DNA of 64,000 bases from the NCBI GenBank assembly GCA_946894095.1, contig OX335643.1, positions 6,001,036 to 6,065,035 on the forward strand, given 5' to 3'. Source of the DNA: Incurvaria masculella. Its lineage: Eukaryota > Arthropoda > Insecta > Lepidoptera > Incurvariidae. Position numbers and translations under genes: made by a program. The notes under the pieces are model-generated. The model saw only the letters and a list, made by a program, of their open reading frames with translations, made no database searches and was not told where the DNA came from. Position 1 is the stretch's first letter; each line of letters begins with the position of its first letter. Shown one piece after another: positions 13,935 through 47,184 of this stretch.

Positions 13935-16900
13935 ATGGGGAGTTCCAATATTTTAAAAGTGGTATTTTTACTCGCACTATGCTGTGGTAAGTAATATTTT
14001 CTGTTCGTATTCTGTATTCGACTTCAAATATACTTTTTCGTACTTAGCCAGTGAGTCGCTTGTTCTTCCTTTTGTTTTTATACATACGTTACTCTAAATA
14101 CTAAAGGTATTCTTCTAAACACTAAATACGCTTCTTAATGAAATTAAATTTTGGTTAGATAAACTAATATTGCAACTTGGGAAGTTTGTTCGTCAGTTTT
14201 TATTTTTATGTTGATAGTGCTAGCTAATTCTATTATTTTTACATGTTAGGTTACCTACCTATTAATAGAATAAATGTACTACTTTATTATTAGTTTTATT
14301 TAGGAAACTTAAGAGCTCAATTATGTGATATTTAAAGAAATAATCCAGGTTTTTAATTTAAAGCCAATAATAAAATTAACGTTCAAGCAACTTTGGAAGG
14401 AGAAGAGATGGAGTGGGCTTGATTGTATTCTCTTTACTTGTGACCCACACGGCACGGTTTTGTATTTACACCCTGTATACATATTAAAAACAGGGTATAT
14501 ATATTATATATATAGTATTTTTATTATACACATATATTATTATTATTATAAACAGTGTATACATATAATATTATATTATGTCAACATATTACCAAAAAAC
14601 AATATGGCATCAGTAAATATATCTTTGCGTACTAAGCAGGTACGTGGCTTATTTCAAGGAATGTGATATGTATGTATGTAGAATTGAGTGTGAAGCGAGG
14701 ACACATGAATTAAAGAAATAGCCCGGTAAAAAGAACTTATTTACGAATATACTGTAAGGCTGGACCCGAACCAGCACAATATATGTAATATGTACCTAAA
14801 TATGTTTGTATATTCAATATTTGCAGTCAATTTTAGCAACACAAATGAAGCTTTAAATAAATGTATGGGGGTATAATCTTAAACACTGTGTTAGTAGGAG
14901 GCATTGATTACTGGAGGAGGGACTTTAGGAGAATTCCAAATTATGGCGAAATTGCAAGACGCAATACCCGCGAATGGTATGTTTTACTGGTTTGGGTATA
15001 GCCTTGCAGTATATTAATAAAGTAGTCCGTTTTGCTGGGCTCTTATTCTGATTAATGTGGCCTTGCTTCAAGGTCGATTATACAAACATACATTTCACAT
15101 TCCTTTGAATATGACATCATTTCTGAGGCAGTTGGTTATTGAAAGTGGCGCCGACTTTGATCTCCAAAACATGAATTGTCAGGAGAGATGACCACTGCAG
15201 TCTCAGCAGAGCGGATTGTCCACGGGATCAAGGCTGGAGACGTGGTCCTGGTAAACTCTGACAAGCAGAAGGTGATAGAAATGCAGAGGGGGCACGGGGG
15301 CTGGAACGACGATATGACAGAGGTGACTAGTATACAATATTTTTTGACGTGGAAAGTGTCCTTTTTTCCGACGCGCGAAATCTCCAAAGTAAAGCTGAGA
15401 AAAGTTATAATGTTGAGAGTGTATTTTAGGTAATGTTGGCATATACAGAGTCTTAGCGGAGATATGGTCCAAACGTTAACCACGTATTCCTCAGCATATT
15501 TGAAGAAATAAATGGAAATCACTTTTTGATCTAAGACTTAAAAAAATGATATTCACATAGTTGACTTTGTAGGGTGTGTTACTCCTTAGCTTCGAACCCC
15601 GACCACGCATCGCGACTGAGTTTTCCGAGGCACTTCTTAATCAACAACTTGGAGCCAATCTTCTCGCCATTGCCTGTCCAGAGCTGGCATTCGTGAAGAC
15701 CTCCATACAGAAATTGACACCCACCTCAACTAACCTATCACGATATCATCACATCATATGGTGTGTGGTGACTGTCATCTCACAGTCACCACACACCATA
15801 ATACCATGATACACGCCTACCGCATCCTACAACTCTATCATAGGCCTACATCTATCTACAATCTATAGATTCGTGACCGCCTTTGAGTGAACAGTCCGAA
15901 ATTTAACTCATGTTTTTTTACGATTTCAGTCATTGGGAAAAATAGGGAAGGTGGAGTACATCGACGGTGATAACGACGCAAGGGTTAAAGTGTGTAAAAC
16001 CTTCTGGTACTTCAACCCCGAAGCTCTTACCAAGCTCTCTTCAACTGAAGATGGCATTCTCGAAATCTCTACAGGTATGTATTATGTAATTTTGAGGTTG
16101 GTCTATTTTGTCAGCCTCGGCAGTGGAGCAACGTGTTCGATCATAAGAGTTAATTAACCCTGGGCGCGGTCGGGTTCTGGTTGGGCTTGACCGTTCAACC
16201 ATTTAGGCTGGCCATAGTTTGGAGCGGAAGTTAAACTGTAGGTCCTCCTTCTATGGGGTAGGGTTGTCAAAGCGGCAATGGAAATTTGCGATGTAATATT
16301 TTTCATTTTTTTTTTACTTTTATTTATTAGGCGTTAAAACGGCTGTGCATACATATTATTTTCAGAAATCGTTTCAACAAAATATACAGCAACAGAAACA
16401 AAGTATATTATTTAATAGATAAATCACATATGTATATTTAAAATAGAGTTATAAAACAAATCATAATAAATTTGTCTAGGAAACATGAACACATTGTTAA
16501 ATACCTTAAAATTTTTAACTGTTCAGTATACCTCACGGTTGTCAAATTGTTTTAAAAGAAAAACGCGTTTAATTTTGTAAGTATTAATATATGTATAATA
16601 CCGCAGATCGATATGCAGTAAAAGCTAGATAAAAGTAAACTCAATCAGCAATGATGCCAAATTTCCACTTCTCGATGGTCTCCGTCCACGTTTCGTAAAT
16701 CGTTTCGTTATTGAAAGAATCTGCAAATCAAGTATTTTTATTGGGTCGCCTTCATAAAGTCCAAAAAGCATAAGGTCCAAAACCCAGAACATCCAAAAGT
16801 ATGTATTTTTGCATGTATTTATAAATGCAAATATTATAATCTAACCTAACCTAACCTAACCTAATTGAAAAAGTTCCGAATTCATTAGTGTTTTGGACGG

Positions 16901-19900
16901 TATGGGTTTTGGACTTTGTGCTTTTTGGACTTTATGATGCGTCCCCTTTTTATTTACTCTATATTCTTCTATTTATTATTTCAGATAAATGCGTTACCGG
17001 CCCAGAATTGGAAGTCACCAAGAAAAGATTGAGGAAAATCGGCAGAATCGTCGATATGGATTGCACTGTGAGGAATAATCCCTACACTTCCTCTTATGTA
17101 CGCTGGGTAAGTTAACATACAGTATTGTGTGATTGTTTTTAATAAAAACTGGTATGGCTGTCAAAGGTGGTCAGGAAAAACAAGTGCACCTCACCTTGCG
17201 AAGCAACCCTAAACGAGGTGCAATTCCAGCCGGTTTTCGGACTATTACAGAAAGATTTTAAGATCCGTATTGGTTTTTACGGGGTTCCGTACCCAAAGGG
17301 TAAAAACGGAACCCTATTACTAAGCCTCCGCTGTCCGTCCGTCCGTCCGTCCGTCCGTTCGTCTGTCACAGGGCTGTATCTCATGAACCGTAACAGGTAG
17401 GAAGCTGAAATTTTACAGATTATGTATTTATTTTGCCGCTATAACAACAAATAGGTAACATTATAAAATAATTATAATTAAAGATACATACAAAAAACGT
17501 GTTTTTTTTTGTAAATCTTGTGCGATGGTACGGAACCCTTCGTGTGCGAGTCCGACTCGCACTTGGCCGGTTTTTAAGTATTTATCTTAGATTATATCGA
17601 TACATTTTTGGGTTCTGTTAGTTGCGAAAAGTCTTTCTTTCTCCGAAGTTATAAACGAATCAGCAGTAGCAGTCATGAGAGTGCCGTGCCATACAGAAAT
17701 ATGAAAGCATAAAGTGCGAGTTTTTAAATATATTTAAGGGAACTTGTGTTCATATAGTAACCGTGACCATTTCGATCCAGTTAGGAAATTATTCCGTGAG
17801 TAAAACCTTTGTCCAAATATTAAATTTATAAATAAGTACAATTTAACTACATTATTCGGAACCTAGCTGAGTTAGTATGGTTTGGATATTTCCGAAGCAG
17901 AAGATAAATTATAAATGAAACTTAATTAAACTTAATTATACATACAAATTATACATGAACTGCGCCCATTTCACAATCCTTTACATAATGTGGTAAACCA
18001 CAATATTAAAAATCGATATTAAAAACACAGTAAGTTGCTTGCAATTATAGGAAAATGTTCAAATTATATAGAAATTTATTTCCAGTTCTTCTTCGCTGTG
18101 ATTGTTGAACTGGCTAATGAAAAAATATGACAATACTGCACGGATGATGAATTCACAATGCACTTGTTTCGTTTCCAGGTTAAGGAAGGCTTGGTGATCT
18201 CGCGAGATGCTACTCTTGCTATCACGAATCCTCGCATCTCGGTTATGTCCGATTCATCGAAAACCTTCACGCTACAGGTATGTTTCCTGTCGTCACAAGG
18301 GAAAATGACAAGTGGGCCCTGTAGTTATGCGCATTCCCCATACAAATATGTTTTGCAAGGGAATTTAAAAAATACTGTTACGATTTACAAAATTGTTTGT
18401 TCAGCCAAAAATGTATTTTGGTCAGAACTTAAGAATGTATGGAGATTTCATTTTTGCTATAATTTAAGTTGCTTAAAAAAATGGACGGCAAAATATTAAT
18501 TTATTAATGATACAAAAATAAAATTTCATTTGCAGGCGTGGTTTGACCTACCAATTTGGTTTCTGCAACGTATTAGTGATTTTAAACTATTCGATATCAA
18601 CGTAACAACGTGTGGCACACAACGCGCATATGGAAAATTCCCATAGGCGTACATGGTCACATTATACGGACCCGGGTAACACTTACATGCGGGTGTGTGG
18701 TGACCATAGTTTCTGATGTGTGACTTCCGCAGATAGATGACATCAAACTCGACGACGCCGGCGTGTACGCCTGCGAGCTGCAGACGAACAACGGCAGTCT
18801 GCTGGCCGCGGCGACCGTGGAGCTCGTCGTCCAGAGTCCGCCGGTCATCTCCGAGAACTCGACCCGCTTCCTAGTGGCCACTGAAGGCGAAGGTGAGTCC
18901 AGAGCGGGCGGATCGTTGCGACGTTTGGGACTCGAATCGGTCCTCAACGGACATCCCATTGTACAGATCGAACGTAATTTAAGAGGGCATATTTTTCGTG
19001 TCAGCATATACGAAAAGAGAAAGCTATTTCCGACTACAGTTCAAGTATATTTTGTTAAAATTATGCCAGCAACTAATATAACCAGTACTTAGTCGTCCAC
19101 CTTTTTAAATATTTTTTTTTTAGTTAACTGGAATATTAAATGCTTTTTAATTTGAATTAAAAAGTATGCAAAATCAAAATGCTTTCAACTCTGTTATTTA
19201 CGAGAAAAACTAATGAATGAAAATATAGGAGACAATCTACTTACATTTTAAAATATATTCAAGTGAAAAATAATGAAATCGGATATGTTTTGATGTAGAA
19301 AACTGTTTTCTCCCGAAGGTAGCTGGGCTACATGTCTTTGAGTAAATAATGGGCGTTTAAATTTTAAAATTACGGCTCTAAGGGTGGGCCCATAACACGG
19401 AGATCGTGGACCTCCATGGCCTGTGAGCATCAGAAAATTAGGCTCCCCATAAAAACGTAGTTTACTAATAATTTAAAAACCACCGTTCCGATTTACTTGA
19501 TATTTGAGATTATATATCGAGCAACAAATATCTATGTGTGTACGTATTTGTCTTTTCGAAAAATGTATCCCGTGTAAAAAAGAGAAGATGAAATTGGCAT
19601 AAGGAAGTTTGAAAACTTACGGCTTTTCACACGGCGGAAGAAGACATTCTCCGACGTTTCGAGCTGATCGTTCAGCCTGTTGTCAACCGCCACGTTCATA
19701 CGAGCAGTAGTCGTCTGCTGCGTAGCTCTAAATAGAATACCACATATGTATACAATTACGAGACGCGTCGTGGGACACCAAGCTCATATTATCGAATCAC
19801 AAGGCTTCGCGCTACTGGGCTACCGAGGCCACAGAATAACTAATCTTTGATTGCATTGTACATATTGCCTGGAATGTTGATACTGGTGCCTGTCTTCTTT

Positions 19901-22425
19901 TTTACAAATAAGAAGACAAGCGAGGAAAGAGACAGGTAGCGGTGTTATCGCTTCTGTCGTAAAGTAATGTGTTGACGAGTCTTTGACAGATAAATTCTCG
20001 ATACCTGCTACTCTATCTGCTTCCTTGCCTCACTACCATATATCCTCGTTCGAAATGCGTATCACCGGATAGTTTGTTACTATGGGAGTGCGATATGATT
20101 AGACACTTGATGGGAAGTTACCAAGTAATTCTAGGTAACGTTTATGACCAATTTGTGTTGTCGAGGTCTGAACGCGCGCCTATTCAGGGTGCAAAGATAA
20201 TGAAATGTTTGTTTATATTAACAGCTCTTTACAAACCTTAATTTGGTTTTCAGGTGCTCAGCTGGAATGCAACGCTGAAGGCGAGCCTGAACCCGAGGTG
20301 ACGTGGCATCGTGTCTTCAAGGAGTCCATCGCGCCAATAGAAGACCTCATTTACACGTAGGTGCTCACTCCATTCAAACCAAAACTCCAGTCAATTGTGG
20401 CTTTGAGGTCAAAATACAGCATGTAACTGAACTGACTACCATTTAATTGCCACTTCGACCGTCTTTCATGAAATGCGATAATGCCAAAAAGGACGAAAAA
20501 GTTTTATATGTAGGAAAACGAACCACGGCCAACCGCAACATTTAGACGGTCACGCATGCAAAATCTGATAGAGCATAGCATTGCCTAACCTTGATAATCG
20601 AACACGGCGTTGCGACCTGGAGATACAGAGGCCTTATCTGGCTGAGGTACTGAAAGCTTATTTTGATACGATTTGGCAGAATGATATCAGTTCTAGTTAA
20701 GTGGAAACTAGTGACCGATCTAATAATATTTCAAATAAATAATGAAAACAAAATTAACAAATTATTCGCTAAAAAATTCGTACTTGACATATAGTGAAAT
20801 ATTGATTTTCGTAGTAAGCAAAAACGTAGTTTTTAAATGCGGCTGGAGTGATATATGGAGTGATAGATATAGTTAAGTGCGTCATACACTTGAAAGAATA
20901 TAGTCTGGCGGTAATGGTGTCACCGAAGTTTGGTTTTTTTATGATTATAGAGGTAGCGTCCTGGAGATAGCAGCCGTACGTCAAGCGGATGGCGGAGATT
21001 ACTACTGCGTCGCTGCCAACGGAGCCGGTCGCTCGGCCAGGAGGGACGTGCACTTGGTGGTGGTGAAACCTGGCGAAGTCTACACCGGTCGGCCATTGGT
21101 GAGGACATTCTTATTGACAATAAAGAATCTTTACAGAAGAATATTTGTAAGGGAGCGTTCGTAAGCCACGTGACGGATTTTAGACATCTTTTGGATCTCT
21201 CCTCACCCCTCGTGACCGGTCGTGACCAAGAGGCTTACTCCCCTTCCCCTGCCCAAGTTACGTGACATTCACAAAATCAGTTTTTACACAACTGTGCAAA
21301 AATCCCGCTATTTCTGATTAGGAGGGAATATTATGAATAGGCCAATATTGAGGTCATTATATATAATTTGTACAGGTTTACGTAACCAAGACGATAATAT
21401 CAAGAGAGGGTACATTTCCGAAAAAAGTTAAAACAATGTTGATTTTAATGCAATCATTTGTTTTATATAGGGCTGATTTTTCGACAGTCTGATAATCAGC
21501 CAATTCATTATTCGACGGATTCATTTACGCTTCTGCTTATGCATCGATTATAGTAAGTCCATATTTTTATTAGTAAAATTACACTCAGATAATTGTGATA
21601 GAAAATATAATTCTCCGGTAATGGCTATCTCGATTAATTTAATTTCATTTACTTATTCAACTTCTGGTGGCCAAACTATAATAAGTCATGTCACAATTTG
21701 ATTGATCTGTGGATTCGATGAACTCAGTGAAGCAGAGAAACTTCAGTGGTCTATAAGTTATGTTTTTTTTCGTCCACATTAATGATGTAATACAATTATG
21801 ATTTCATGCCTAAATGCTACTGCCAAACTGATTTTTAAAAAATTTAGAACGGTAAAAAACTAGGAAACTAAGGCTAACTTAAGGCAAAGAACTAAGAAAT
21901 ACGAGGAAACAACAACCCAAAATGTGAAAAGCCTTCAATATTAAATTACTTAACCTTCCTTATCCGTCTTTTGACATATGGTAATTTGTACTAGTCGTCC
22001 GATAAGTACTATCTGAGGATTGAAAAGACCCTTAGAAGGTTCGTGGGACGGGCGGAGCGCTTGGCACGACATGACTCGGCTTCGGTGCGTTCCGTCACGT
22101 GACTCGGGCCGGCATCGTGACCAGACGTGACCGAGAGCCGGACCCCTCCCTCCCCCTAAATCCCTCACGTGGTTTGTGAACGCTCACACTTTTATGAGTT
22201 ATTGATTTACAGATTGATGACACGACTGCCACAGTCGTCCCCGCCGACTCCGTCTCGCCGCTCCTGGCGGAGCAACTCCAGCTTTACGCAGAGAAGATCA
22301 CCAACTCCACCGGCGAGATACGCCTCCAGGTCGAGGGTTTCAACAAAAAGCTCAAGGCTATTGAGAGAGGACTTCAATATCCCGAGACCTGCAAGGATTC
22401 CGCAGTGGCGACAAATCGTGTTTAG
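13935..22425 (+). CDS. Gene A: secreted protein with Mind bomb-type SH3 repeat and two Ig domains
   Basis: Nine exons join in consistent phase: 13,935-13,986; 15,183-15,322; 15,930-16,074; 16,985-17,106; 18,179-18,277; 18,733-18,892; 20,254-20,356; 20,951-21,098; 22,213-22,425. All introns are GT-AG and the product is 393 residues. Exon 1 is a signal peptide (KVVFLLALCC). Exons 2-3 form one SH3-like repeat of the Mind bomb/HERC2 kind, with GDVVLV, the hallmark RGHGGWNDDM, then LGKIGKVEYIDGD and FWYFNPEALTKL. Exons 4-6 form an Ig domain (MDCTV, VRW, DAGVYACEL). Exons 6-8 form a second Ig domain (LECNAEGEPEPEVTWH, DGGDYYCVAANGAG). The last exon holds a short helical, charged tail with no membrane segment, so secretion is likely. 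Family function is unknown to me. Ig domains suggest recognition, and Mib repeats bind peptides in known ligases. Gene B is a paralogue on the other strand. Confidence 0.85.
14690..15080. repeat. Dispersed repeat in gene A intron 1, related to 25,190-25,400 and 35,925-36,010
   Basis: The part at 14,870-15,080 (AAACACTGTG, AGACGCAATACCCGCGAATGG, CTTGCTTCA.GGTCGATTA) recurs in order at 25,200-25,415. The part at 14,695-14,770 (GAGGACACATGAATTAAAGAAA) resembles 35,930-36,005. No coding content. Confidence 0.6.
16112..16300 (+). repeat. SINE-like repeat, copy 4 (degenerate head)
   Basis: TGTCAGCCTCGGCAGTGGAGC, GGTCGGGTTCTGG, TTTAGGCTGGCCATAGTTTGG and AAACTGTAGGTCCTCCTTC match the head region of the copies at 12.1 and 23.1 kb. 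Located just downstream of gene A exon 3. Confidence 0.55.
16743..16946. repeat. Inverted-repeat element with an internal (CCTAA)n run
   Basis: CATAAAGTCCAAAAAGCATA and GTCCAAAACCC at left face GGGTTTTGGAC and GCTTTTTGGACTTTATG at right. Between the arms, 16,841-16,864 is about five units of CCTAA, the complement of the insect telomere repeat TTAGG. The element ends 38 bases before gene A exon 4. Confidence 0.6.
17265..17575 (+). repeat. Lepidopteran GGGTTCCGTACC...CACTTGGCCGG repeat, full copy
   Basis: Begins GGGGTTCCGTACCCAAAGGG and continues with a (CCGTCCGT)n run, GGGCTGTATCTCATGAACCG and GCCGCTATAACAACAAATA. It ends GTGCGAGTCCGACTCGCACTT then GGCCGGTTTTT. From general knowledge this repeat is very common in moth and butterfly introns. 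Further copies here: 26,573-26,665 (part), 38,656-38,764 (internally deleted), 43,545-43,808 and 46,790-47,066 (both minus). Confidence 0.8.
19000..19440 (+). repeat. Intronic repeat shared with gene B flank (47,250-47,580)
   Basis: AAAGTATGCAAAA, TTTTGATGTAGAAAAC, TTTCTCC.GAGGGTAGCTG and AAATGATGGGTGTTT-like blocks occur in the same order and orientation at 47,390-47,550. The segment from 19,440 to 19,570 further resembles the foldback element at 44,464-44,828. Confidence 0.5.
19445..20253. other. Gene A intron 6, remaining sequence
   Basis: Contains further repeat debris, including a SINE-head fragment near 19,790-19,835 (antisense, GGCTTCGCGCTACTGGGCTACCG). No exon-like open frame with flanking splice signals was found. 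Confidence 0.4.
21152..22188. mobile_element. TIR element in the last intron of gene A
   Basis: The left end GGGAGCGTTCGTAAGCCACG is mirrored at the right by CACGTGGTTTGTGAACGCTC. Inside, 21,480-22,030 matches 42,370-42,605 in inverted orientation (GATAAGTACTATCTGAGGATT, CGCTTCTGCTTATGC), so a second repeat is nested in it. It occupies nearly the whole last intron and ends about 25 bases before the terminal exon. Confidence 0.55.
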
Positions 22426-22691
22426 ATAAGGTGTTGTCGTGTTTAGGGAAATGGTGACAATAAGAATTTAGTAATTTTTGCATAATATTTTGAGAAAAAC
22501 TACCGAATAAAATATACTGCATTTGCCAAAATTTTTTTTGGTCTCTGTCTTATGCTGTGATTGTGGTCTTGAGACGATTCTCAAGTATTCCGTCTGTCAA
22601 ATTTGACTAAACTTCCATACATTTTAGATCAAAATTTACAGTTTTCACAGATTGCAATACAAAACTGAACTATCTGAAATTTGGTCTAACA

Positions 22692-23216: not shown

Positions 23217-23437
23217 GTAGCCACGGATCGTTGGTCGGCGGAGCACCGCGCTTTTGCGCCCTACGCGACGCAATGGGGCGTTTGCAAGACAGTTAAATGT
23301 TCGACCAACACGAGATTGTCCGAGTACTTGTTGGTAGTTGGGTGCGAAGTGTTCGTGAAGAAGAACAAGAAATCGGAAGCGGTTCGGCGTGATGTGATTG
23401 CAAATCCTCGTCTCTCGCTCAGAAAGCGTTCTGTGCA
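23214..23437 (+). repeat. Second copy of the 8,822-9,075 repeat
   Basis: Same ordered blocks as 8,822-9,075 (TAGCCACGGATCGTTGGTCG to CTCGCTCAGAAAGCGTTCTG), in the same orientation. Its left edge coincides with the SINE-like head. Confidence 0.75.
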
Positions 23438-36000: not shown

Positions 36001-39000
36001 GAACCAACAAGTTACGATACATAAAAATGAATAGATTTTTAGATATTATTTGTTTTGCAATATCGTTTGTGTGTAGTTACTTTTAAAAGCATCTTTATAT
36101 CAGGCAATTTTCGGAAGATAAAATTTTTTTTACCCACAACCTCCAATTTAAAATATAATTAAAATAAATTGTGAATTCATAACGCGTCCCCTATTCCAGA
36201 ACGTTCCTTCGTATATTCTAACAGCGATCGATGAATAAATAACGCAATGTCCTCAATCACTTGATTGACTGTATACCCATATAAATAGAAAAAACAACTA
36301 CGTTTGCAGATTAATTAGACTAAAGCGATATTTTACCCAAAATCACGTTTGTGTCTAATTTTTCACAATTTTTATGCCGTATTTACCGTGCGTTTGCCAT
36401 GTGTTTGCGTACTTTTTTTTTTACTCATTTTGAAATAGTTGGTTCACTGTCGGCTGTTGGGTTGTTTTCTTGAAAGTTGTTTGTTTAATGCAAACGTATA
36501 TACAATGTGAAAGTGAAAATCCATATTAAGTCGTTTTGAAAGCACAAGGTCGAAAACCCAAACCGTCCAAATCATTTATGAATACGGACAAGGTTAGGTT
36601 ATGTGAAGGCAACAATTTGAACAAAAAAATTGTAAGCTTCCACTCATATTGGCTGGAGATTTTAACGTTAGTGAAATATTATTTATTACTAAATATTTCA
36701 ATTAATGTCTATTTTTACTTATAAAAATCAAATTTACTTAATTTGCATTGAAACAATGATAAAAAATTTACAAATAGAAACAATCTAAATCCTTAGATGA
36801 AAAAGGAATCTAAATCACCATATCGAATTATATTCAAATGTTCTATCATTTGATTGCTCTTTATATTTTTGCTGTGAATTTATTGAAAATGTAATATTGT
36901 AATTGACTATTTCTATAGCATTATGGATGTTCGCTGAAATAAAAACATTTTGATTTTCATTTTGATCTTGAAGTGAAAGCGTATTGAACCTCGTTCCTGA
37001 CGGGGTCCCTCGATTGCACACTTTTTTTCTTCTATTACTGTGCCCTTCCTTCACAGTCGATTCAACATATATGTTTTGTAAGTAATGCTATTTCCGTACA
37101 GACATAATTCCGATCGCATTTTCGCACTTATTTCTTGAATCCTGAGAGTTATGAGTATTTACTAAACGCGAAACTACTTATCCTGGGAAATCCGAGCGCG
37201 CGCGTTGCGCCGGGCACAGATTATATAAATCTCTTAGCACGGAAGAAACTAAAGCGACAGTCGGTCAGCGTTCCGAGCAATATTCCGAGCCGAATTTCGT
37301 TCGCAAGTTCCGAGCGGAATTATCTCTGTCCGGAAAAGGCTTCAGTAACACTTACCCAGTTAACGGTTGCAAAGGTTACTGGATCACTGAATATAGCGCA
37401 TGTTAGCTTTTCTACGTTGCCGACTCTTTCCTGTGTGATGTTGATGGTGGCATAGGAAATGATGCATTCTGTGGAAATACCAAAATATTCTGATCATTTA
37501 ATGTGTAGTAGTTAGTACATGTAGCTCGGTGAGATTAAGGCGGTGGTATAATAATGTGGAAGACGTAACTACTTAGAACACTTGTTTAATATAATAAAAG
37601 AAATATATATTATAGCGATTATCACATTTAAGGTCGGAGAAAAAAAAGGGGAAGTTCGTTATAATGTTGCAATATCCAAAAAGGTAATATCGAGTCACCT
37701 TAAGAGGTCCTGGCATACGCCATATGCCGCGCTTAACATACAAAAATAAATCTTCGTACCAATACCAATTGGTATAAAGATGTATTTTTAAAATCCCCTA
37801 TGATGATTTTTGTAAGTATATCGACTAACACAACACACAGTTTTCAGGTTCCAGATGATAGAAAACGAACATGAAACATTAAATGCAGCAATGACCATTG
37901 TCAAATTTACTGTCAAATGGTTACCTGAGGATATCTCAGGAGCGCTGCCGCCGGCTGAGGCGATCTTGATGAGCACTTTGGGGTTGAAGACCCAGGAAGT
38001 GTTGAACATTTCAACTCTCAAGTCGCCATCGTAGTCGGCAGAAACTATTCCTATTTTTCCCAATGTCTGAAAATGTGTTGTTGGAATTAGAAAAATACAG
38101 ACTGTCCACTTCCCAGCATTTTTCTCCAGATTCGGACTGCGTATGCCGCTAGGTGACACTCGGGCTAAGAAAAATAGTCGTAACAGAAACTCAGGCTAAG
38201 ATAAATAGTCGTAACCGAAACTAAGACTAACGAAAAGTAGTACTTTGTGACGTCATTTTGCATTACTTTGAGATTTCGCCCATACAAAATGTATCAAAGT
38301 TACGACACAAAGTACAACTTTTCGTTAGCCTTAGTTTCTGTTACGACTATTTATCTCAGCCTAAGACTAACGAAAAGTAGTACTTTCTGACGTCACTTGG
38401 ACATATTTTGTATGGACGAAATCTCAAAGTAATGCAAAGTGACGTCACAAAGTACAACTTTTCGTTAGTCTTAGTTTCTGTTACCACCATTTATCTCAGC
38501 CTCAGTTACTCGTTAATATCTCAGAGAGTACTTAACTTATCAAGCTCAAAGTAATTATTAAATAACTTTAGGTGCATTCGCAAGAATTATTTGCAAAATT
38601 TTCGTTTCAATAGCACAAACTTTGCTCGATAGAAAAAAATCGTCAAAATAGGCCTATTTTTAGGGTTCCGTGCCTAAAGGGTGCAAACGGATCCCTATTA
38701 CTAAGCCTCCGATGTCCGGAACCCTTCGTTTGCAAGGTCAACTCGCACTTGGCCGATTTTTCACATTTCTCATCGTCTCTTCAAACTAGTAAGGATTTTA
38801 AATAAAAAAATATATGTGCGCACAGTGCTCTTTAATATTTGAACCGAATATTCGTGCGGAAACACCTGAAGTTATATGCAAATAAATTAAAGTTTCATAA
38901 GTACTCCCTGAGAAATTAAGGAATAACTAAAAGTCATCTAGCGGCATACGCAGCGTACATCTACAAAATACTCTTTTTACACGTTCATTACAACTGCTAG

Positions 39001-42000
39001 TATTATGTAACCTGACTTTTCGATTTGCTTTATTAATCTCATCGTATGTTTTTTTGGTCGCTCGGTGTCGACAATTCTACTCGCTTCTACTCTTTTGATT
39101 TGTATTATTTCGTCAAACATTTCATCTACAAGCCCTACCAACCCAAGTTCTGTTAATATATTATTTTTCAGTTGACTTACCCAACTATTGCGAAACTTGG
39201 GGCCTCGTCAGAACGTCAAAAATTCAGAACGACAAAAATGTGTATTTTTGAAATACCATTGCAAAACATCAAAGAATCAGACCGTCGAATTTGATTGAAT
39301 ATTATTTTATTTTGTTCGTTTTGCAATGGTTTAGTACTTTTAAAAAATGCTTAATTGCAGAACCCCAATAATCAGGACGACAAAAAATTTGACGATCTGA
39401 CTTTTGTCGGTCTGCAAGTTATTTTTAAAAAATAGATTTTTGTCGTTTTGATTTTTTGACGTTCTGAAGGCGACTCCGAAACTTGTACGGTTAACTCATT
39501 CCGCAAACTTTCCTCAAGCAACGAATTTCTACAGCATTATATCCTATATGAAATACCCAAGTCCCGCTATCATGCACGCTAGGCACCATACACAAGAATA
39601 TCGCTTCGATTCGCCATCCTTATTGTGATAAAAGTCTGTAAGTTGTTTTTGGTTTCCGTTTAAATATTTGCTTTCCATTATTTCTGCTAAATATTTTTTG
39701 ATAATTAAATTTTTCAAAATGCATGCTTTACTGTTTGTTTGTTAATAATAATGATTTTTAACACAACATTGCCATGGTCATAGTAGCCAGAAACACAGCA
39801 TGACATATGAAGCGCAGAATTCAAAAGTGCCACTTTCTTGTCTCAATCATTTGCCCTCATAATTTACAACGAAATAATGTATTGGGAAAAAAATATTTTA
39901 GACATGCAAAATCATACTGAAAACCTTAAGAGGATAATGAGAACTTTACTTATATCCAACGAGAAAAAATCTTCTTTTATTAAAGAGGTTATTTTCTCAT
40001 TGCTTGTATCCATGATACGCTCCTTTTTGTATTTGCATACACATTTTCAGATGCATATATAACGGATATAAATTAATGTATCAAAAGAATCAAAACGTGT
40101 AATTCAAACGTAGCTCTCAGTTGATTAATTAAATGTGCAAAATCTCAAAATAATATTTATCAAATTTACTGAGGAATCAGGCACGAGCCATTGTATGTAA
40201 CATGATCACCTCGTTATCCTCTTAATGCCAAAACTACTTTCAACCGTCCCAACCACCTTGGAAAGTTTGTACACTTTGATCGACTAAAATGCTTTGGTTA
40301 TTATGCTCTAACAAGATAACCTTTTCCATTTCATCTACCCATCCTCCGTGATCTTCTTCGAGCTGCTTCACTTTCGCCTTGTCCTCGATCACCAATACGA
40401 TGTCTCCCTCCACGATCTTGTCTTCCGTCGCCGTTGCTTCTGTGGTCGTACTGATGGCGCTTGGCAACTGGGATACCTCGAGCTTCGTAGCTGCGGTGGC
40501 TGCTAATTCGCTGTGGATCGTTACCTCGCACGTATACCAGCCCGCATCTTCAGGCTTCACATCGTCAATCTAAGGAAATGCCGTTTTTATTTAATTTAAA
40601 ATATTATTCATCAGACTTCAGTGGTATATTGTAATAATATTTTTCTATTACAAGTTCAATAATAAAGTATGAAAACGCAAATAAAATTAAAAAATTACAA
40701 TTTGTAACAAAGTTAGATTCTTAATAAAGCCGCGTTCCGACGATAAGAGTTGACTCTGACGAAGTGTACCCTGGCGGTCACTCTAATGATACTAGTAGCG
40801 TGGAAACCGTGCATCAGAGTTAACTCGGACGAGTGTGTGCCATCATAGTGGACTAGGACCGTGCTCAACTTTTTCGAGTGAATTATGTGTGAATGTGAAT
40901 TGAAGAGTGGCACAACGTCACTTTTTTCAGTACTAAACAGTTCGAAATATTTGTTTTATTTTTAAATATTTCATTGTCTTGTGCGTTCAGATAGAAAGAA
41001 CAGTGTTAAAAATGGCTGATAAAAAATCATGTTAAAAATTCATGTTAAAACATTTTCAAATCTTTTATCAACATATCTGCAGTTATTTCAAGGCCCAGCC
41101 GTAACAGTTCCTGATCCGTCACGATATAGATATTGTTTTTTGTGCAGAAAAGCTATTTGCCTGTCAACTTCTTTAGATTACATAAGAGTGAACGATGAAA
41201 TTTTTAAACCACTATCATAGTACACTAGGAAGGAGGCTACTCTGTCATAGTATACTCTTGCAAGTAAACTCGTATCGCAGGAACGCGGCTTAAATGTTAT
41301 CGTTCACTGTATTGTGTCCTTGATGGAATTGGGTTTTATATTGATGAATTCTAACAATACTGCAGAAGAATATTGCTGCAGTCCATTATCGGTGCTTCCT
41401 ACTAACACAGTGCTTAAAACATATTATAAATTAAAGCGCGCAGACGTGTGGAAAATTGATTCCTCCTGAATTCAGACATAAGATCCCTAAAATTTATATT
41501 TGCATATTTTTTTTATATATATAATGATGTGTCCTTGGAGCAATGTTCAGACTTACATATTTAAATAAAGACAGAGCCTTGTCGTGAACTTTAAATGTAG
41601 CAGATCACATGATATCATCACACTCTTTATTCTATCATTTGTGCACACTTTGATATTTGAGCTATTATGAATGGTGCTTTAAACATGCGATCTCCAAAAC
41701 AATTGTGTGATAACTCTTAGACTTCCTCCATCACTTGGCATAGACCTGTTTAAATACCTTTTTTTTCTACATTGATTGAAAAATTTGTTCTCATACTTCA
41801 TTTATGTTGGTACTATCTTTCATGTGGGTATCTGTTCCTGTCTTTACTGTGAAATGTACTCCAGTGATTGGTTATTAAATATAATTGTACGCGGATTATT
41901 ATTAAAAATACCTACCACAATTGTAAAGATGTTCGACGAAAAGTGTGATTGGACGGTGATGCGGGAATCCTCAGTTACCCTGACGGAATCACGAGAGATT

Positions 42001-45000
42001 GGGTCGCCGCCCTTTTTCTGTTGACGAAAACCATTGAATTATGTATTATATCCACAATGTTTGTATCAGTTATGTGTTCTGAGTAATATGTCGCAAAATA
42101 AACGAAACATTTTTTTTTTGTTACTTGTCATAGACGGCTAATAACACACCCACCGTCAAGATATTAGCCCAATATACCTCATTGAACTTGGTGCCATACC
42201 AGGACCTTTCATATATTGCACGGCTATTTAACTGATGGTCCGAAGATCGCAGGTCCAAGTTCTGGTTCAGACCGAACAATATATTTTTAGCATATTTGAC
42301 TAATAACATTATAATATTATATGAAAAAGGAACGTTGTTTTTTTATATAAGATTATAATACTTTAGTAAAATTTTTTAATCCTCAGATAGTACTTATCGG
42401 ACTTATCGGATCGTACAAATTCACGTTGGTCAAAGGACGGATAGTCATTGCTGGATAACTATATCTTCTATCACAATTACCTGACTATAATTTTAATAAT
42501 ATGTATAATATGTATTTGAATAATATATTTATTTTCTAATAAACATATGGACTTACTATATTGGGGGCATAAGCAGAAGCGTAAATAAATTTGTCGAATA
42601 GCTATCTGAGTGGGCAGTCTGAGTTCTCACCGAAATTGGCGTTTACGGCAAACCGATCGACTGGCGTTTTCTCCAAACTCCATACAAGTTTTTACTAGAT
42701 ATTCTGTGGTTTTACTTCTTCAAGCTGTCAAAGTCAAACGCGGACTTCCGATTTGTATGAAAACGCGGAGTGGACGTAAACGGCAACGTCGACGTATTTA
42801 CGGCAACGTTGAGTAAGCTGTCAAATCAAGCTCGGACTCGCAAATGTTAGTTCGCTTAACGCCCGCTGCGCGCGCTCTTCAATTTCTCCATACATTTGAA
42901 AACGCCAGTCGATCGGTTTGCCGTAACGCCAATTTAGGTGACAACTTAGACTACCGGCTCTGAGCCGGTAGTCTCAGTTTTCACCTCAATAGGCGTTGAC
43001 GTAACTTCGAAGTTCCATAAATACTCCATACAAGTTTTCAATAGATATTCTGCGGTTTTACTTCTTCAAGCTGTCAAAGTCAAACTCGGACTTCCGATTT
43101 GTATGAAAACGCGGAGGCGACATAAACGGCAACGTCGACGTATTTACGGCAACGTTGAGTAAGATGTCAAATCAAACTCGGACTCGCAAATGGTAGTTCG
43201 CTTAACGCCCACTGCGCGCGCTCTTCAATATCTCCATACATTTTAAAACGCCGTATCGGTTTGCCGTAACGCCAATTAAGGTGAGAACTCAGACTGACTA
43301 CTCTGTCTGTCTGTTTATTAGACCATTGAAAAATCAGCCCTAAGATTACTTTAAGCCAAAAGCTCGTCCGATATCGATCAACAAAAATAACACTTACCCA
43401 CAACACATGAGAGTCGGGATGTTTGTCGACTACTGTGCAGGTGAGGCTTACACTGTCGGAAGATCTCTGCTCGGAGATGCTGACAGTCGAGTTTAACCAG
43501 ACGCAATCTGGTGAAATGAAAATATTTGATATTGTTACATATCAAAACCGGCCAAGTGCCAGTCGGACTCGCACACGAAGGGTTCCGTATCGTCGTATAT
43601 GATTTAACACCAAAAAAGCACGTTTTTTGTATATTTAATTTTCATTATATTTTTTTTACCTATTTGTTATTATAGCGGAAAAATAAATACACACTTTGTG
43701 AAGAAATCAGCTGCCTACCTCGTACGGTTTATGAGATGCAGCCCTGTGACAGACAGCGGAGGCTTAATAATAGGGTTCCGTTGGCACCCTTTGGGTAAGG
43801 AATCCTAAAAAGTGTCAAATTTTAACGGTTGACTTTGTCAGCTAGTAAATAAATAAATAAGAAATATTCATTAACTCCTCTTACTTAGATACCATTTTAC
43901 AGACAGGTAATTTATATATTAACTAGCTGTAATACCCGGCTCCGCTAGGAACAACATTGAAGCATTTTTTTGGGGATAAAAGGTCGCCTACATTTCAAGC
44001 GTTTCAAACAAACCATACAATTTCAAAAAATTTCATTGCGGACTATCCGTTGGGTCGTTTCAGATATTTGTGTGCGTGAACATGGTGACGCGTGATTTTT
44101 TTAAATATCAATTAGTTTATTGCGGGGTTTGAGGTTCGTCGCTCAACGTCCTAAAATGGTAAATAACTCGAAAGTATAATTTATTAGGTTACCTTTTCCT
44201 TAATTTTTCAAAATGTATCTATATGCGTCTCTCATTTGATGCCAACATTATCACAATCTATCAAACATTTATAATTTTACTAGTTGAGTTACCCGACTCC
44301 GCACATGTCAATTTCATTTTGGACGAACTGTTGATAATCCCATAACAACAAAACCTTTTTCCCAAATAAATTGTATCCTATGTGGTTATCCAGGTAATAA
44401 ACTATGTATTTGTCCAATTTTATTCATATCGATTCAGCCGTTTTTGTAACGGATGTTAAGAACGGCCCGTAAGCTATGCTCCCCATACAAACGTAGTTTA
44501 CTTATCATTTAAAAACCGCTATTCCAATTAAATTGATATTAAATATGAAAAATCAGGGAACCAATATCTGTGTCTGTATACTTTTGTTTTTTTGAAAAAT
44601 CCAAACCGAATCAGATGAAAGCAAAAACAAAATCTTCATACTAATTTTGTTTTCTCTGTGGTTTGACTCAGTATACATTTATCGAAAAAGCAAAGGCATG
44701 CAGACACAGATATTTGTTGCCAGATTTGTGATACCAAATATCAAGTAAATTGCTACAGTGGTTTTTACATGATTAGTAAACTACGTTTGTATGGGAGGCG
44801 AAATTTTCTGATGCTTACGGGGGCACCTTAAGTAACGAACATCGAAACTTTCACATTTATGACATAAGTAGGGAGCATAAGGCATAATTGTTTCTATTTA
44901 CACCGAAAACTTTACATAAACACTGACGACCCAGAACAGGAATGAAAGGGCGCGCATCCGTATTCCAGTACTAAAAAATACTCATAAATCAAAACTAAAA

Positions 45001-47184
45001 TCAAGCTTAATTCAATGACGGTGTAACTAGTTCTGGCAGCGACGGGAGATGGCGCTAGTTAAAAATGTCATAGTGCCAGCAAAAATAAGCAGTTTTCGGC
45101 ATTTATTTTTAATCTACGGTAAAGATCGGGTACAGTTGAACCGAAAATCGAACATCCCATATCTACAAAGAAATATATGGCCATCTCCATCTCGACTTTA
45201 TGTTCAGGGTCGCGGGGTGATGGTACTTGCATAAATAAAAACTGTTTTAAGCAAAAGTAAATTTACCCATGGATATCTCCGGTGCACTTTCGCCGGCCGA
45301 TGCAAGTTTAATGATAGTATTCGGGGTATACCACGCAGTAGTGCCGCATATTCTCACCAAAACATCATTGACGCTGTCCTGCTTTATAACTCTTCCTATT
45401 TTTCCCAGTGTCTGCGAAAAGAAACAAAAATAATATGGTGATATCCAGTCAATTTTACTTAGGTACCCGGGTAAAGGTACACATTCGGAATGTATGCTGA
45501 CCAACAGGTCTATTCCTGGCATTCAGTAATCAGGAATCCTGATTCTAGAAAACCGCTTTTGTCGCGGTTTTCAAAGCGATTTTCTTGATGTTCTTGATTT
45601 TCTCAATGTTCCGGAGCATAGTTTTTTTAATCAATCAAGGTTTTCCGTGTAAAAACTCGCTTTGAAAATCGCTATAAAAGCGGTTTTCTAGACTCAGGAT
45701 TCCTGATTCTTGATTACTGAATGCCAGGAATAGACCTGCTGGTATCGCGATGATACTTGGGATATATGGGATATTGATTAAGTGATGCCTCAGTCATATG
45801 TTTGCAGATATATGAATAGTTTTAGTATTTTTTGTCGTAACTTGTGAAGTTATTTTCCTTATACTTTTATTTTATTTCTTTAAAATCAATATTTAATATG
45901 TTTAGGATGATTAAATCAAATAAAAAACGGAATGAAAGTAGGTTCGAATGGCAGGTATGGAGGTGAAGAAATTCCTCCATGTGCCAGACTTTAGCGAAAT
46001 TTCAAGAGATTGTATGTCAATTTTGACATAAAATGTATGGAAGTAATGTCAAATTTGGCAGTCGGAAGATTAGAAAATTCTCTTAAGACCTAAAAGCTGT
46101 CTTGAATCTCAGGATAATGGACTGTTAATTTTGGCACAAAATGTATGGAGTTATGTGAAATTAGGCAGTCGGGAGACTTGACAATTATCTCAAGACCCAA
46201 AAACCGTCATTAAATCTCAGCATTTGCCTTACCCGCGGATCCGCCAAAACTAACCGGACGTATTTCGTCGTCATAATCCAAACTGCCAAAGCGCTCCTTA
46301 ACTGTGGCCTCGTCGGAGAGCACCTGCACCACGTCTCCTTCCTTGAACTCTTCCTCCGCAGCATCTTGCTTTGTATCCGTTTTGCCGACTTCAACTTTCA
46401 CGGCAGCGGTAGCAACCAATTCTTCTCTTCTTAGCTCGCAGGCGTACCAGCCTTCGTCTTTAGATTTAACATCACTAATCTGCGGGGAGAACGAAAAGTA
46501 TTTATTGAAGAATATTTTCGTTTGTTTCTAGTTTAAGTTCTGATAGTAACTGTTGTGACTTTGAAGAAATTAACACGAATAGATAGAGCTAACATTATCT
46601 TGCCTTATTGGCAAATCGGTGACTCGTTCTTGCTTGACACGGCTTTGCCCAATCTTCCCATTTGTTAATAACCTCATTCCCGACGCAATTTTTAGTCTAG
46701 AATTCAGAATGGCACTTCGCTCGCAAGGTGAAATGAACAGCGTCTACATATTGTTGTTGTTGCTGCCATTTATAGCGGTCCACTTAAAAAACCGGCCAAG
46801 TGCGAGTCGAACTCGCACACGAAGGGTTCCGGACCATCCATAAGATTGAAATAAAAAAATCACGTTGGGGCACCCCTTTGTTTTTTATATTTTTTATGTT
46901 ACTTATTTGTTGTTATAGCGGCACAATAAATACACACTCTGAAAATTAGAGCTCCCTACTTATTACGGTTTATGAGATACAGCCCTATGACAGACGGACG
47001 CACGGACGGATGGAAGGACTGACGGACAGCGGAGGCTCAGTGATAGGGTTCCGTCTGCACCCTTTTAAAATTATGACATTACCTGTAGTCTCAAGATTTT
47101 CGGTCCGGCCGAACTCACTGTGACCCGGCCGCGCGGCAACGGAGCAAGAGCAGCGTCTTCAGGCATTGCTCCATATTTATTTAC
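30028..47184 (-). CDS. Gene B (5'-incomplete): protein of alternating Ig domains and Mind bomb-type SH3 repeats
   Basis: Eleven exons in transcript order: 47,184-47,083; 46,479-46,255; 45,411-45,267; 43,507-43,398; 42,017-41,916; 40,569-40,321; 38,066-37,925; 37,468-37,356; 35,805-35,704; 32,025-31,924; 30,231-30,028. Every intron is GT-AG and every phase fits, giving 531 residues with a TGA stop. Order: second half of an Ig domain (DEGWYACEL), Mib-type repeat 1 (EGDVVQVLSDEATVK, TLGKIGRV), Ig (LTCTV, LW, DAGWYTCEV), Mib-type repeat 2 (GDIVLV, DHGGWVDEM, LGKIGIV, WVFNPKVLIKI), Ig (LTCAIF, VNW, DAGWYSCEL), then a charged helical tail (EEQLLDIKYLITNSTAELR). The tail aligns with the end of gene A (AEQLQLYAEKITNSTGEIR). 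Repeat 1 has lost the HGGW motif. The exon for the first half of the first Ig, and any signal peptide, were not found before the Polinton at 48.3 kb. They probably lie beyond it. Confidence 0.85.
30600..30890 (-). repeat. SINE-like repeat, copy 6
   Basis: Minus-strand copy: TTATTGCCGCTTCGAGC, ATCCAATGCGATGGTATC, ACCCGGGTGGGATTAAC and ATTACCACCTAGTAGGGG. The head, near 30,800-30,885, is degenerate. It lies head-to-head with the next copy inside the last intron of gene B. Confidence 0.65.
30945..31330 (+). repeat. SINE-like repeat, copy 7
   Basis: Plus-strand copy: GTCTGCGTTCAAATATTC (B-box-like), CTTTATGAGTTGGATAAGTGG, CCCCTACTAGGTGGTAGGATTA, TCTAGTTCAATGTGCCG and GGGAAGGTCTTGTC, ending TGTGTGGTATAAGCC. 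Confidence 0.65.
31331..31923. other. Gene B last intron, unassigned part
   Basis: AT-rich, with a short (TG)n run at 31,555-31,592 and TTTATAGTTTATAGTTTATAG at 31,595-31,617. No exon-like frame. Confidence 0.4.
32070..32825. repeat. Tandem satellite array, left part
   Basis: Units of about 100 bases, alternating in two forms to make a higher-order period of roughly 200. Each carries CTACAGTTATAGTTTGCAAG, AATTAACGGACTG, TTGCACGCCCAATAATTAGG and either ACTCTTGCACCCTGTTCGGC or ACACTCGTGCCGTTTTTGTC. The array lies in a gene B intron just upstream, in transcript sense, of exon 32,025-31,924 and continues beyond an inserted LINE at 34,666. Long antisense frames here come from the unit length and are not genes. 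Confidence 0.9.
32821..34665 (+). mobile_element. 5'-truncated LINE inserted in the satellite array
   Basis: A reverse transcriptase of the jockey/CR1 type. It starts at KIVDLNKSAGPDGIS and shows VHKKGPKNNIENYRPIS, DYSKAFDKINH, GVPQGSLLGPLLF and the catalytic FADD. It is broken by stops near 32,915 and 33,526 and by a stop/frame change near 33,721. The post-RT tail (33,752-34,315) follows in another frame. The 3' UTR ends in (AATA)n at 34,643-34,665. Satellite sequence flanks it, with ATAGC present at both joins as a probable short target duplication. Confidence 0.88.
34666..35290. repeat. Tandem satellite array, right part
   Basis: Continuation of the array at 32,070-32,825 with the same two alternating unit types. 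The last unit (about 35,215-35,290) is the most diverged. The array and the LINE together account for 3.2 kb of gene B intron. Confidence 0.9.
35806..37355. other. Gene B intron between exons 37,356-37,468 and 35,704-35,805
   Basis: Includes a copy of the GGACACATTAATTAAAGAAA repeat (35,925-36,010). It also has a CG-rich patch near 37,190-37,210 (GAGCGCGCGCGTTGCGCC). No further exon with valid phase and Ig or Mib motifs was found. Confidence 0.4.
38164..38505. repeat. Nested, tandemly duplicated foldback repeats
   Basis: The block AACTAAGACTAACGAAAAGT and its complement ACTTTTCGTTAGTCTTAGTT occur twice each. TGACGTCA-type words and GAGATTTCG / CGAAATCTC lie between them. The whole reads as two palindromic units back to back. 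Intronic in gene B, about 100 bases from exon 37,925-38,066. Confidence 0.7.
38656..38764 (+). repeat. GGGTTCCGTACC-type repeat, internally deleted copy
   Basis: AGGGTTCCGTGCCTAAAGGG and CTATTACTAAGCCTCCG join directly to GGAACCCTTCGTTTGC and CACTTGGCCG, with the roughly 190-base middle seen at 17.3 kb removed. Confidence 0.7.
39201..39474. mobile_element. MITE with CGTCAGAACGTCAAAAA termini
   Basis: GGCCTCGTCAGAACGTCAAA and GAACGACAAAAAT at left are mirrored by ATTTTTGTCGTTTTG and TTTTTTGACGTTCTGAAGG at right. Internal GACAAAAAT/TTGTCG motifs repeat. No open frame. Confidence 0.6.
39926..40225. mobile_element. TTAA-flanked MITE, copy 2
   Basis: TTAAGAGGATAATGAGAACT at left and CACCTCGTTATCCTCTTAA at right, bounded by TTAA. 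The interior (GCAAAATCTCAAAATA, AGGAATCAGGCACGAGCCAT) matches copy 1 (12,991-13,307) in inverted orientation. The right end is 95 bases from gene B exon 40,321-40,569. Confidence 0.65.
40729..41289. mobile_element. Element with GCCGCGTTCC termini
   Basis: The left end GCCGCGTTCCGACGATAAGAG faces CTCGTATCGCAGGAACGCGGC at the right. The interior holds GAGTTAACTC-type words and a short frame with no known family. The target duplication is unclear. Confidence 0.55.
41290..41915. other. Gene B intron, nothing recognised
   Basis: AT-rich DNA between the GCCGCGTTCC element and exon 41,916-42,017. It has a local inverted pair AATACTGCAGAAGAATATTGCTGCAG near 41,360. No coding or family support. Confidence 0.35.
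42128..42262 (-). repeat. SINE-like repeat, copy 8 (body end)
   Basis: GACGGCTAATAACACACCCACC, AGATATTAGCCCAATATACCTC, TTGGTGCCATACCAGGACC and ACGGCTATTTAACTG match the tail of the family, minus strand. Confidence 0.55.
42617..42951. mobile_element. TIR element, left member of a tandem pair
   Basis: TCTGAGTTCTCACCGAAATTGG and TTTACGGCAAACCGATCGAC at left face GATCGGTTTGCCGTAACG and CCAATTTAGGTGACAAC at right. The interior has AAACGGCAACGTCGACGTAT. A second copy follows at once. Confidence 0.65.
42970..43294. mobile_element. TIR element, right member of a tandem pair
   Basis: Shares ordered blocks with the left member (TTTTACTTCTTCAAGCTGTC, GGCAACGTCGACGTATTTAC, CTTAACGCCC.CTGCGCGCGC) and ends ATCGGTTTGCCGTAACGCCA then GGTGAGAACTCAGAC. 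It ends about 100 bases from gene B exon 43,398-43,507. The join carries a perfect CCGGCTC/GAGCCGG palindrome. Confidence 0.65.
43545..43808 (-). repeat. GGGTTCCGTACC-type repeat, minus copy
   Basis: Starts AAAACCGGCCAAGTGCCAGTC and GAACGAAGGGTTCCG-like sequence, then TTGTTATAGCGG and TATGAGATGCAGCCCTGTGAC, and ends TTAATAATAGGGTTCCG. It lies in the intron upstream of exon 43,398-43,507. Confidence 0.75.
43920..44440. repeat. Degenerate interspersed repeats of the TACCCGGCTCCGC type
   Basis: AACTAGCTGTAATACCCGGC at 43,921 and TAGTTGAGTTACCCGACTCC at 44,281 each head a segment that ends in GATTCAGCCGTTTTTG-like or similar sequence. They are common remnants of lepidopteran LINE/SINE tails, without coding content. 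Confidence 0.45.
44464..44828. repeat. Long foldback element
   Basis: CCCATACAAACGTAGTTTAC at left is mirrored by GTAAACTACGTTTGTATGGG at right. The arms continue through ATATCTGTGTCTG / CAGACACAGATAT and GTTTTTTTGAAAAA / CGAAAAAGC-like blocks. Related single-arm sequence lies at 19,440-19,570 in gene A. Confidence 0.6.
45501..45742. repeat. Long palindrome, arms about 85 bases
   Basis: CAGGTCTATTCCTGGCATTC and AGTAATCAGGAATCCTGA at left are mirrored by TCAGGATTCCTGATTCTTGA and GAATGCCAGGAATAGACCTG at right. Inner blocks TAGAAAACCGCTTTTG and AAAGCGATTTTC are mirrored as well. About 90 bases from gene B exon 45,267-45,411. Confidence 0.7.
46015..46219. repeat. Direct tandem duplication next to gene B exon
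   Basis: 46,015-46,107 and 46,128-46,219 share AAAATGTATGGAGTTATGT-like, GGCAGTCGGGAGA, CTCAAGACC.AAAA and AATCTCAG blocks. The second copy ends 35 bases short of exon 46,255-46,479. Confidence 0.6.
46790..47066 (-). repeat. GGGTTCCGTACC-type repeat, minus copy
   Basis: AAAACCGGCCAAGTGCGAGTC, CACACGAAGGGTTCCGGACC, TTGTTGTTATAGCGGCAC and TATGAGATACAGCCCTATGAC, ending TGATAGGGTTCCGTCTGCAC. It fills the space up to exon 47,083-47,184. Confidence 0.8.

Follow-up and report, generated by a model that had tools for sequence, protein, structure and literature searches.

Results

We analyzed a 64,000-nt stretch of the Incurvaria masculella genome (assembly GCA_946894095.1, contig OX335643.1, forward-strand positions 6,001,036 to 6,065,035; hereafter the window), in which two genes, A and B, join immunoglobulin (Ig) domains to SH3-like repeats of the Mind bomb (Mib) type. 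Positions without a prefix are those of the window, and C3 denotes the contig as a whole. An earlier note had described both genes as fusions of Ig domains with Mind bomb/HERC2 SH3-like repeats. The joining of Ig to Mib SH3 repeats was borne out by Pfam, which recognized SH3_15 (PF18346, the Mib SH3 repeat) together with Ig families in both genes. The PF18346 score was above the gathering cut-off of 24 bits in gene A (65.9 bits), in gene B (72.2 bits) and in a further gene, D, outside the window (370.1 bits). The HERC2 part of the label had to be dropped, and we rejected that reading since Pfam gave SH3_15 and no MIB/HERC2 domain.

Gene A lies on the + strand at 13935-22425 and, in our splice model, has nine exons encoding 393 aa from ATG to stop, with GT-AG borders throughout and consistent phases. 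Its order is a signal-like segment, one Mib SH3 repeat, Ig1, Ig2 and a C-terminal exon. Exon 1 (13935-13986) carries the start codon and a signal-peptide-like segment and ends in phase 1. The SH3 repeat is divided between exon 2 (15183-15322; GDVVLV...HGGWNDDM; phase 1 to 0) and exon 3 (15930-16074; SLGKIG...WYFNPEAL; 145 nt; phase 0 to 1), while exons 4 (16985-17106; phase 1 to 0) and 5 (18179-18277; phase 0 to 0) hold the first part and the middle of Ig1. Exon 6 (18733-18892; phase 0 to 1) contains the end of Ig1 (DAGVYAC) and the start of Ig2, which continues through its middle in exon 7 (20254-20356; phase 1 to 2) and ends in exon 8 (20951-21098; DGGDYYC; phase 2 to 0). The C-terminal exon 9 (22213-22425) has an NST sequon, a helix predicted by alignment to gene B, and the stop. 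Pfam matched SH3_15 with an E-value of 4e-18 and I-set/Ig_3 in two stretches, indicating two Ig domains. The best solved matches of the Ig pair were MDGA1, Robo2 and Dscam, which are adhesion or guidance proteins, and Drosophila DIP-eta is a solved relative that spans both domains. A signal peptide had been claimed for gene A; hydropathy indeed detected a hydrophobic signal-like segment at its N-terminus, and the corresponding start of gene B lies outside the window.

The visible part of gene B comprises 11 exons on the - strand (47184-30028) that encode 531 aa with a terminal stop, GT-AG borders and agreeing phases, in the order Ig end, SH3, Ig, SH3, Ig and C-terminal exon. Base 47184 does not mark the start of the gene; it is the acceptor of an internal exon (47083-47184, the middle of an Ig) that is the first visible one and contains no gene start. 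The missing first half of this Ig was found at C3:6070288-6070398 (-), 22 kb beyond and outside the window. The next exon (46255-46479) carries an Ig end together with the first half of an SH3 repeat, whose second half follows at 45267-45411 (145 nt; phase 0 to 1). The first part and the middle of another Ig are found at 43398-43507 and 41916-42017, and its end is again joined to the first half of an SH3 repeat in a single uninterrupted exon (40321-40569), followed by the second half at 37925-38066 (142 nt; phase 0 to 1). The last Ig is encoded by three exons, for its first part (37356-37468), middle (35704-35805) and end (31924-32025), and the C-terminal exon (30028-30231) contains TSCVGC, a predicted helix, an NST sequon and the stop. 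Pfam matched SH3_15 in two stretches (E 4.2e-20) and also Ig, with V-set among the Ig families.

The exon at 40569-40321 (-) has one stop-free frame: it opens with the final third of an Ig (IDDVKPEDAGWYTC...) and closes with the initial half of an SH3 repeat (GDIVLV...HGGWVDEMEK). It matched the end of the Ig V-set model with 17.4 bits and then the start of SH3_15 with 22 bits, both below the Pfam cut-offs (26 and 24, respectively), as expected for half domains. Since this one uninterrupted gene B exon bears both an Ig end and an SH3 start, the fusion does not depend on splicing guesses alone. We consider the Ig-SH3 fusion confirmed at the level of the genomic sequence, with this exon as the strongest single fact. 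Its sister exon (46479-46255) gave weak generic SH3 matches only and no Ig match.

Human MIB1 (4tse) was the best solved match of every SH3 module, one in gene A and two in gene B (E 1.7e-30, 1.1e-25 and 3.3e-12), and the second repeat of 4tse outscored the first in all three modules (61.4 vs 45.0, 57.4 vs 33.0 and 42.5 vs 5.2 bits). The Ig domains of both genes retain their two core cysteines. Matches to Izumo-Ig and other Ig sub-families in Pfam were taken as general Ig similarity. An extra cysteine was seen at the start of Ig domains in genes A, B and D, and also just before Ig1 of a lachesin-like gene described below. In all seven comparisons of paralogous stretches, synonymous differences (pS) exceeded non-synonymous ones (pN), although synonymous divergence (dS) was saturated in two; this pattern is as expected for coding sequence under constraint.

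Neither gene was thought to encode a membrane helix or a RING finger, and our searches agreed. By hydropathy, no 19-residue window reached transmembrane level in gene A or B outside the signal-like segment of gene A. No RING family appeared in the Pfam output for genes A and B (E up to 1; gene B incomplete) or D (E up to 0.001). A single, simple cysteine pattern for RING was also absent from genes A and B. Ankyrin repeats and the MIB/HERC2-ZZ module were likewise missing from the Pfam output for A, B and D, with gene B incomplete.

The model of gene D (C3:6239242-6194017, - strand) has 42 exons and 5,355 nt encoding 1,784 aa, with sound splice borders throughout and one terminal stop. SH3 and Ig alternate nine times before the C-terminal exon, and each unit is bounded by phase-1 introns, a phase symmetry read from the genome. 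Pfam gave eight SH3_15 stretches and six Ig_3 stretches that pass on their own. The gene starts with MELPVLFFTAFFCSTLCW, a signal-like segment joined via a phase-1 intron as in gene A; we chose this exon because a near-copy with the same donor sits upstream of gene E, a neighboring partial copy of gene D. The SH3 modules of units 1-9 fall into classes by their different replacements of HGGW and NP: units 1-4 lack both motifs and units 6-8 lack one or both. Since these residues were lost, the units concerned may have changed their ligand or become spacers. In the SH3 tree, two gene B modules formed well-supported pairs with units 5 and 8 of gene D, pointing to a whole-gene duplication.

Genes A, B and D belong to a family clustered on C3, a contig of chromosome scale. 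The genome (552 Mb, 31 contigs) was searched in six frames, and SH3_15 gave 26 matches: three on C5, in a gene named mib1, three on C9, in a mib2-like gene, and 20 on C3. The gene B protein had at least 85 matches, 84 of them on C3 and the other in mib1; this count is a lower bound, from 81 of 187 candidates scored. The second-half SH3 exon occurred at no fewer than 50 distinct places, all on C3 (41 at 6.0-6.55 Mb and 9 at 7.4-7.47 Mb), some of them decayed, and the C-terminal exon at 13 or more, again all on C3, of which one, at 6097584, was truncated. An exon-level profile search of a contiguous 264 kb (the window and adjoining sequence) recovered 19 second-half and 17 first-half SH3 exons, 19 first, 11 middle and 19 last Ig exons, and five C-terminal exons. 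At C3:6491-6535 kb (+) we noted three highly similar Ig-SH3-Ig stretches, about 26 and 15 kb apart, which suggests recent duplication. Gene E (C3:6244-6260 kb) has one unit, in which the first SH3 unit of gene D is followed by Ig exons resembling those in units 8 and 9 and then by the tail.

Outside this genome, a scan of viral contigs gave no match, and a scan of prokaryote genomes gave two weak matches to the tail region of gene A only, which we took as chance. Among protein homologues, a search with gene A recovered a single Mind bomb-type protein, which has ankyrin repeats (P0001; 7,993 word-richest candidates scored), while gene B (7,991 candidates scored) and its SH3 region found none; these searches say little about insects.

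The mib1 gene on C5 was named from its exons, which match repeats 1 and 2 of MIB1 as well as the ankyrin region of P0001. Its second repeat, with phases read from the genomic sequence, has a phase-0 intron after ...GEWAEAMAP, and the 3' exon that follows reads TLGKIGRVQQIYHDNDLKVEVCNTSWTYNPNAVTKVASSDGSVPGNSS (TLGKIGRV...VPGNSS/G) and ends in phase 1 before ...GERLSALLKKLFET. The SH3 exons of the cluster start and stop at residues and phases matching this mib1 exon. Its length of 145 nt is shared by 11 of the 13 cluster exons compared (out of 19 second-half SH3 exons in the 264 kb); of the others, one measures 142 nt and one 148 nt. Gene A exon 3 agrees with the mib1 exon in length and in phases. 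In blastn with these 13 exons against the mib1 exon, the best E-value was 2.7e-15, for gene D unit 9. The module comparison and tree covered 16 of 19 modules, and 15 of the 16 were closer to repeat 2 of the moth's own mib1 (mean 0.44) than to repeat 1 (0.32). The second SH3 repeat of mib1 is therefore the likely parent of the cluster SH3 exons. The mib2-like gene on C9 is a less likely parent, as its 3' exon (VLGKTGRVMNV...) is without the shared tail.

A likely parent of the Ig part lies on C3 itself. A gene at C3:6743.5-6755.2 kb (-), which we take to be lachesin, sits between the two cluster blocks, encodes at least three Ig domains and has its ends outside the fetched sequence. The first exon of its Ig1 starts in phase 1 and ends in phase 0 after the conserved Trp; the middle exon (phase 0-0) ends with ...YTLQ, and the following exons are 0-1, 1-2 and 2-0. 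The Ig1-Ig2 exons of gene A have the same phases (1-0, 0-0, 0-1, 1-2, 2-0) at all borders read, and from the end of Ig1 to Ig2 the two genes are identical at 61 of 125 residues (49%). In the lachesin-like gene, the two opening exons of Ig1 gave weak matches to the family profiles (E 0.001 and 0.013), and the 16 kb examined at this locus yielded no convincing SH3 exon. Since the borders and phases match and no such SH3 exon was found there, insertion of a phase-1-bordered SH3 cassette into the phase-1 intron before Ig1 appears to be the simplest account of gene A. The third Ig and hydrophobic glycosylphosphatidylinositol (GPI)-type tail of lachesin were looked for in the family: gene A has two Ig domains, and a hydrophobic tail is absent from A, B and D.

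The fold of the gene B C-terminal exon was predicted with an alignment of four sequences, giving one helix over residues 13-61 (mean pLDDT 80.8, pTM 0.44). The NST sequon is common to all four rows, and genes B and D have a CxxC before the helix. Such a helical exon is compatible with a bundle-forming tail.

The array is interspersed with other elements. Within the would-be large intron of gene B, frames of a presumed Polinton/Maverick element lie on both strands at 48.3-58.9 kb, with matches to double-jelly-roll, integrase core and chromodomain, Pox A32, phospholipase A2-like and DNA polymerase B families. A 1,316-codon open frame with reverse transcriptase, RNase H and integrase domains follows at 58943-62890 (+). 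These two elements separate the gene B exon at 47184 from its Ig first half. A 202-bp tandem repeat occurs in a gene B intron in two blocks (32139-32820 and 34664-35292), which flank frames that look reverse-transcriptase-like by eye. Elsewhere in the window, a single open frame of 460 aa at 6058-7437 (+), apparently intronless, matches serine carboxypeptidase S28 (E 8.8e-95). A genome search for gloverin, a lepidopteran family, gave two matches over the cut-off (E 2.4e-9 and 1.7e-7), which together with the count of 31 contigs is in keeping with a moth or butterfly.

Discussion

Our favored reading, to which we assign a probability of about 0.6, is that a tandem family including genes A, B and D arose when mib1 second-repeat exons entered the phase-1 intron before Ig1 of a lachesin duplicate, and that its products are predicted secreted, multivalent extracellular binders. 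The earlier note proposed the transfer of an intracellular recognition module to a family of extracellular Ig proteins, and the presence of likely parents of both parts in the same genome supports this. The direction and order of events, secretion and the bound target are inferred. Under this reading, mib1 exons would have been shuffled into a duplicated lachesin gene and afterwards amplified; the third Ig and tail of lachesin would have been lost, a helix exon gained, and the unit multiplied to give genes B and D. Secretion of the gene A and D proteins is predicted from their N-terminal hydrophobic segments. Lachesin is a GPI-anchored adhesion protein with three Ig domains, and in the mature, exported family protein a soluble helical tail would take the place of the third Ig and the membrane anchor. 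The tail, with its Cys-x-x-Cys in genes B and D, would bundle several chains together. Adhesion is mediated by Ig domains of the lachesin type, and each arm would present Ig faces of that kind in addition to Mib-derived SH3 faces, allowing a single molecule to hold many targets simultaneously. The REP region of Mib1 binds the C-box of the Notch ligands Delta and JAG1 (PMC11887331), from which the ancestral SH3 region would appear to read short peptides. Decayed copies, recent duplicates and the varying number of units would fit a fast-turning recognition role, perhaps in immunity, better than a fixed structural one.

Several observations weigh against this reading. The gene models of the fusion are built from genomic sequence only. 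Secretion is supported by hydropathy, through the segments in genes A and D; our strict filter missed the signal exon of gene D, another candidate scored higher in hydropathy, and no candidate was accepted for gene B with this filter, which did recover the gene A exon. Titin, an intracellular muscle protein, is the fourth solved relative of the gene A Ig pair. A search for the middle Ig exons of units 3 and 4 in gene D came up empty. Many modules have lost HGGW or NP, so peptide reading may be gone from them. As to origin, the SH3 tree does not unite the cluster (two changes were required, and one group formed in 31% of 200 bootstrap trees), and the gene A module groups with repeat 1, with weak support (65/72). 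A single capture of mib1 exons therefore remains a proposal, which the tree does not prove. The 5' borders also differ: the first-half exon of mib1 starts in phase 0 and the units of genes A and D in phase 1, and some first-half SH3 exons of the cluster are fused to an Ig exon rather than starting at phase 1. The mib2-like gene shares the split within the repeat, and its exon there is less similar. In addition, part of the family looks dead. The upstream units of gene B (C3:6076-6081 kb) have an in-frame stop in one SH3 exon and one shortened SH3 exon, and because of these a full-length gene B may not exist. Gene C (C3:6097-6161 kb) looks decayed, with missing exons and a truncated C-terminal exon. 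Finally, a comparison of six exons between genes D and E, two of them trimmed, counted 7 synonymous and 16 non-synonymous changes, and the resulting dN/dS (non-synonymous to synonymous divergence) of 0.65 is compatible with weak constraint and with adaptation alike.

The alternative that survives best, which we regard as possible though unlikely, is that the proteins are soluble lachesin antagonists or matrix linkers, secreted to bind the moth's own lachesin-type molecules and to tune epithelial or glial junctions, with the SH3 repeats as rigid spacers. The 49% identity of gene A to the lachesin-like gene on the same contig would agree with this, as would the adhesion Ig proteins such as DIP-eta among the solved relatives, the non-hydrophobic tail exon that ends genes A, B and D, and the many SH3 units without HGGW/NP. 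However, the number of C-terminal exon places and the strong variation in unit number would be unusual for a housekeeping junction factor. Variable unit number, decayed copies and recent duplicates suggest a fast-turning recognition role, for example in immunity, over a fixed structural one.

A more specific proposal, which we put forward tentatively and hold to be rather improbable, is a lineage-born recognition system, in which a Mib peptide reader set in a secreted lachesin scaffold would provide, along one chromosome, a repertoire of (SH3-Ig)n multivalent immune opsonins with a logic like that of FREPs or Dscam. Its phase-symmetric units would be combinable by duplication and perhaps by splicing.

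We think it improbable that the cluster is mostly dead or artefactual, with chimeric copies multiplied by local duplication and transposon activity and yielding few functional products or none. The truncated C-terminal exon of gene C, the stop in the upstream gene B units, the partial copy that is gene E, and the Polinton-like element and retroelements within the array all point that way, but genes A (9 exons), D (42 exons) and B (11 visible exons) are intact and pS exceeded pN in every paralogue comparison. A cytosolic role, in which the signal segment does not work and the SH3 repeats compete with Mind bomb for Delta/Serrate tails, is the least credible: most modules resemble the second repeat of REP, which binds the Delta/JAG1 C-box, and Mib1 without MZM but with REP appears dominant negative in flies (PMC11887331), but two gene models (paralogues, and so non-independent) open with hydrophobic signal-like segments and a phase-1 intron, the gene A and B Ig domains keep their core cysteines, lachesin-type Ig proteins are extracellular, and the units are single repeats, not the REP pair, many of them without the motif residues.

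The proposed secreted family resembles known systems in part. With the REP region of Mind bomb 1 it shares the SH3_15 repeat sequence, the intron position and phases of the second repeat, and the tail sequence after the repeat (K-ASAG...), but ankyrin, MZM and RING were not found in genes A, B or D, single repeats are joined to Ig, and secretion is predicted. With lachesin it shares the Ig1 and Ig2 sequence of gene A and all exon borders and phases read; unlike lachesin, it has SH3 exons between the signal segment and Ig1, a helical exon in place of the third Ig and tail, and up to nine units, in gene D. Hemolin, a secreted lepidopteran Ig protein, is likewise a multi-Ig protein, as the family is predicted to be, but has Ig domains only; this comparison is by description. 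Dscam and mollusc FREPs are also diversified, modular, extracellular Ig proteins, and the phase-1-bounded units of our family would be skippable in principle, but the fibronectin, transmembrane and fibrinogen parts of those proteins were not found in genes A, B and D.

The earlier note knew of no described protein with this architecture. This held for the open-access literature, in which full-text searches found neither an Ig-Mib SH3 fusion nor a combination of lachesin and Mind bomb described; insect protein databases were not covered, and an already annotated but uncharacterized family there is quite possible. Chimeric, amplified extracellular Ig families are a known kind; the Ig-Mib SH3 architecture itself is new to us, and we know the Mib SH3 repeat domain only from intracellular proteins. 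A sunflower kinome paper reportedly uses the term Mind bomb SH3 repeat, so the name of the domain also occurs outside animals. The terms immunoglobulin, lachesin, SH3 and mind bomb are absent from the main text of a survey that covered new and expanded gene families across 115 insects, of which 99 are Lepidoptera (PMC11837612).

The cluster offers a chimeric family whose two halves can each be traced to a likely parent in the same genome at the level of single exons and their phases. It shows how a phase-1-bordered exon cassette can become a long alternating array. It also presents a domain that we know only from intracellular proteins in a predicted extracellular setting. If secretion is true, binding by the Mib SH3 repeat outside cells would become testable, and lepidopteran biology would gain a new candidate group of secreted proteins for recognition or adhesion.

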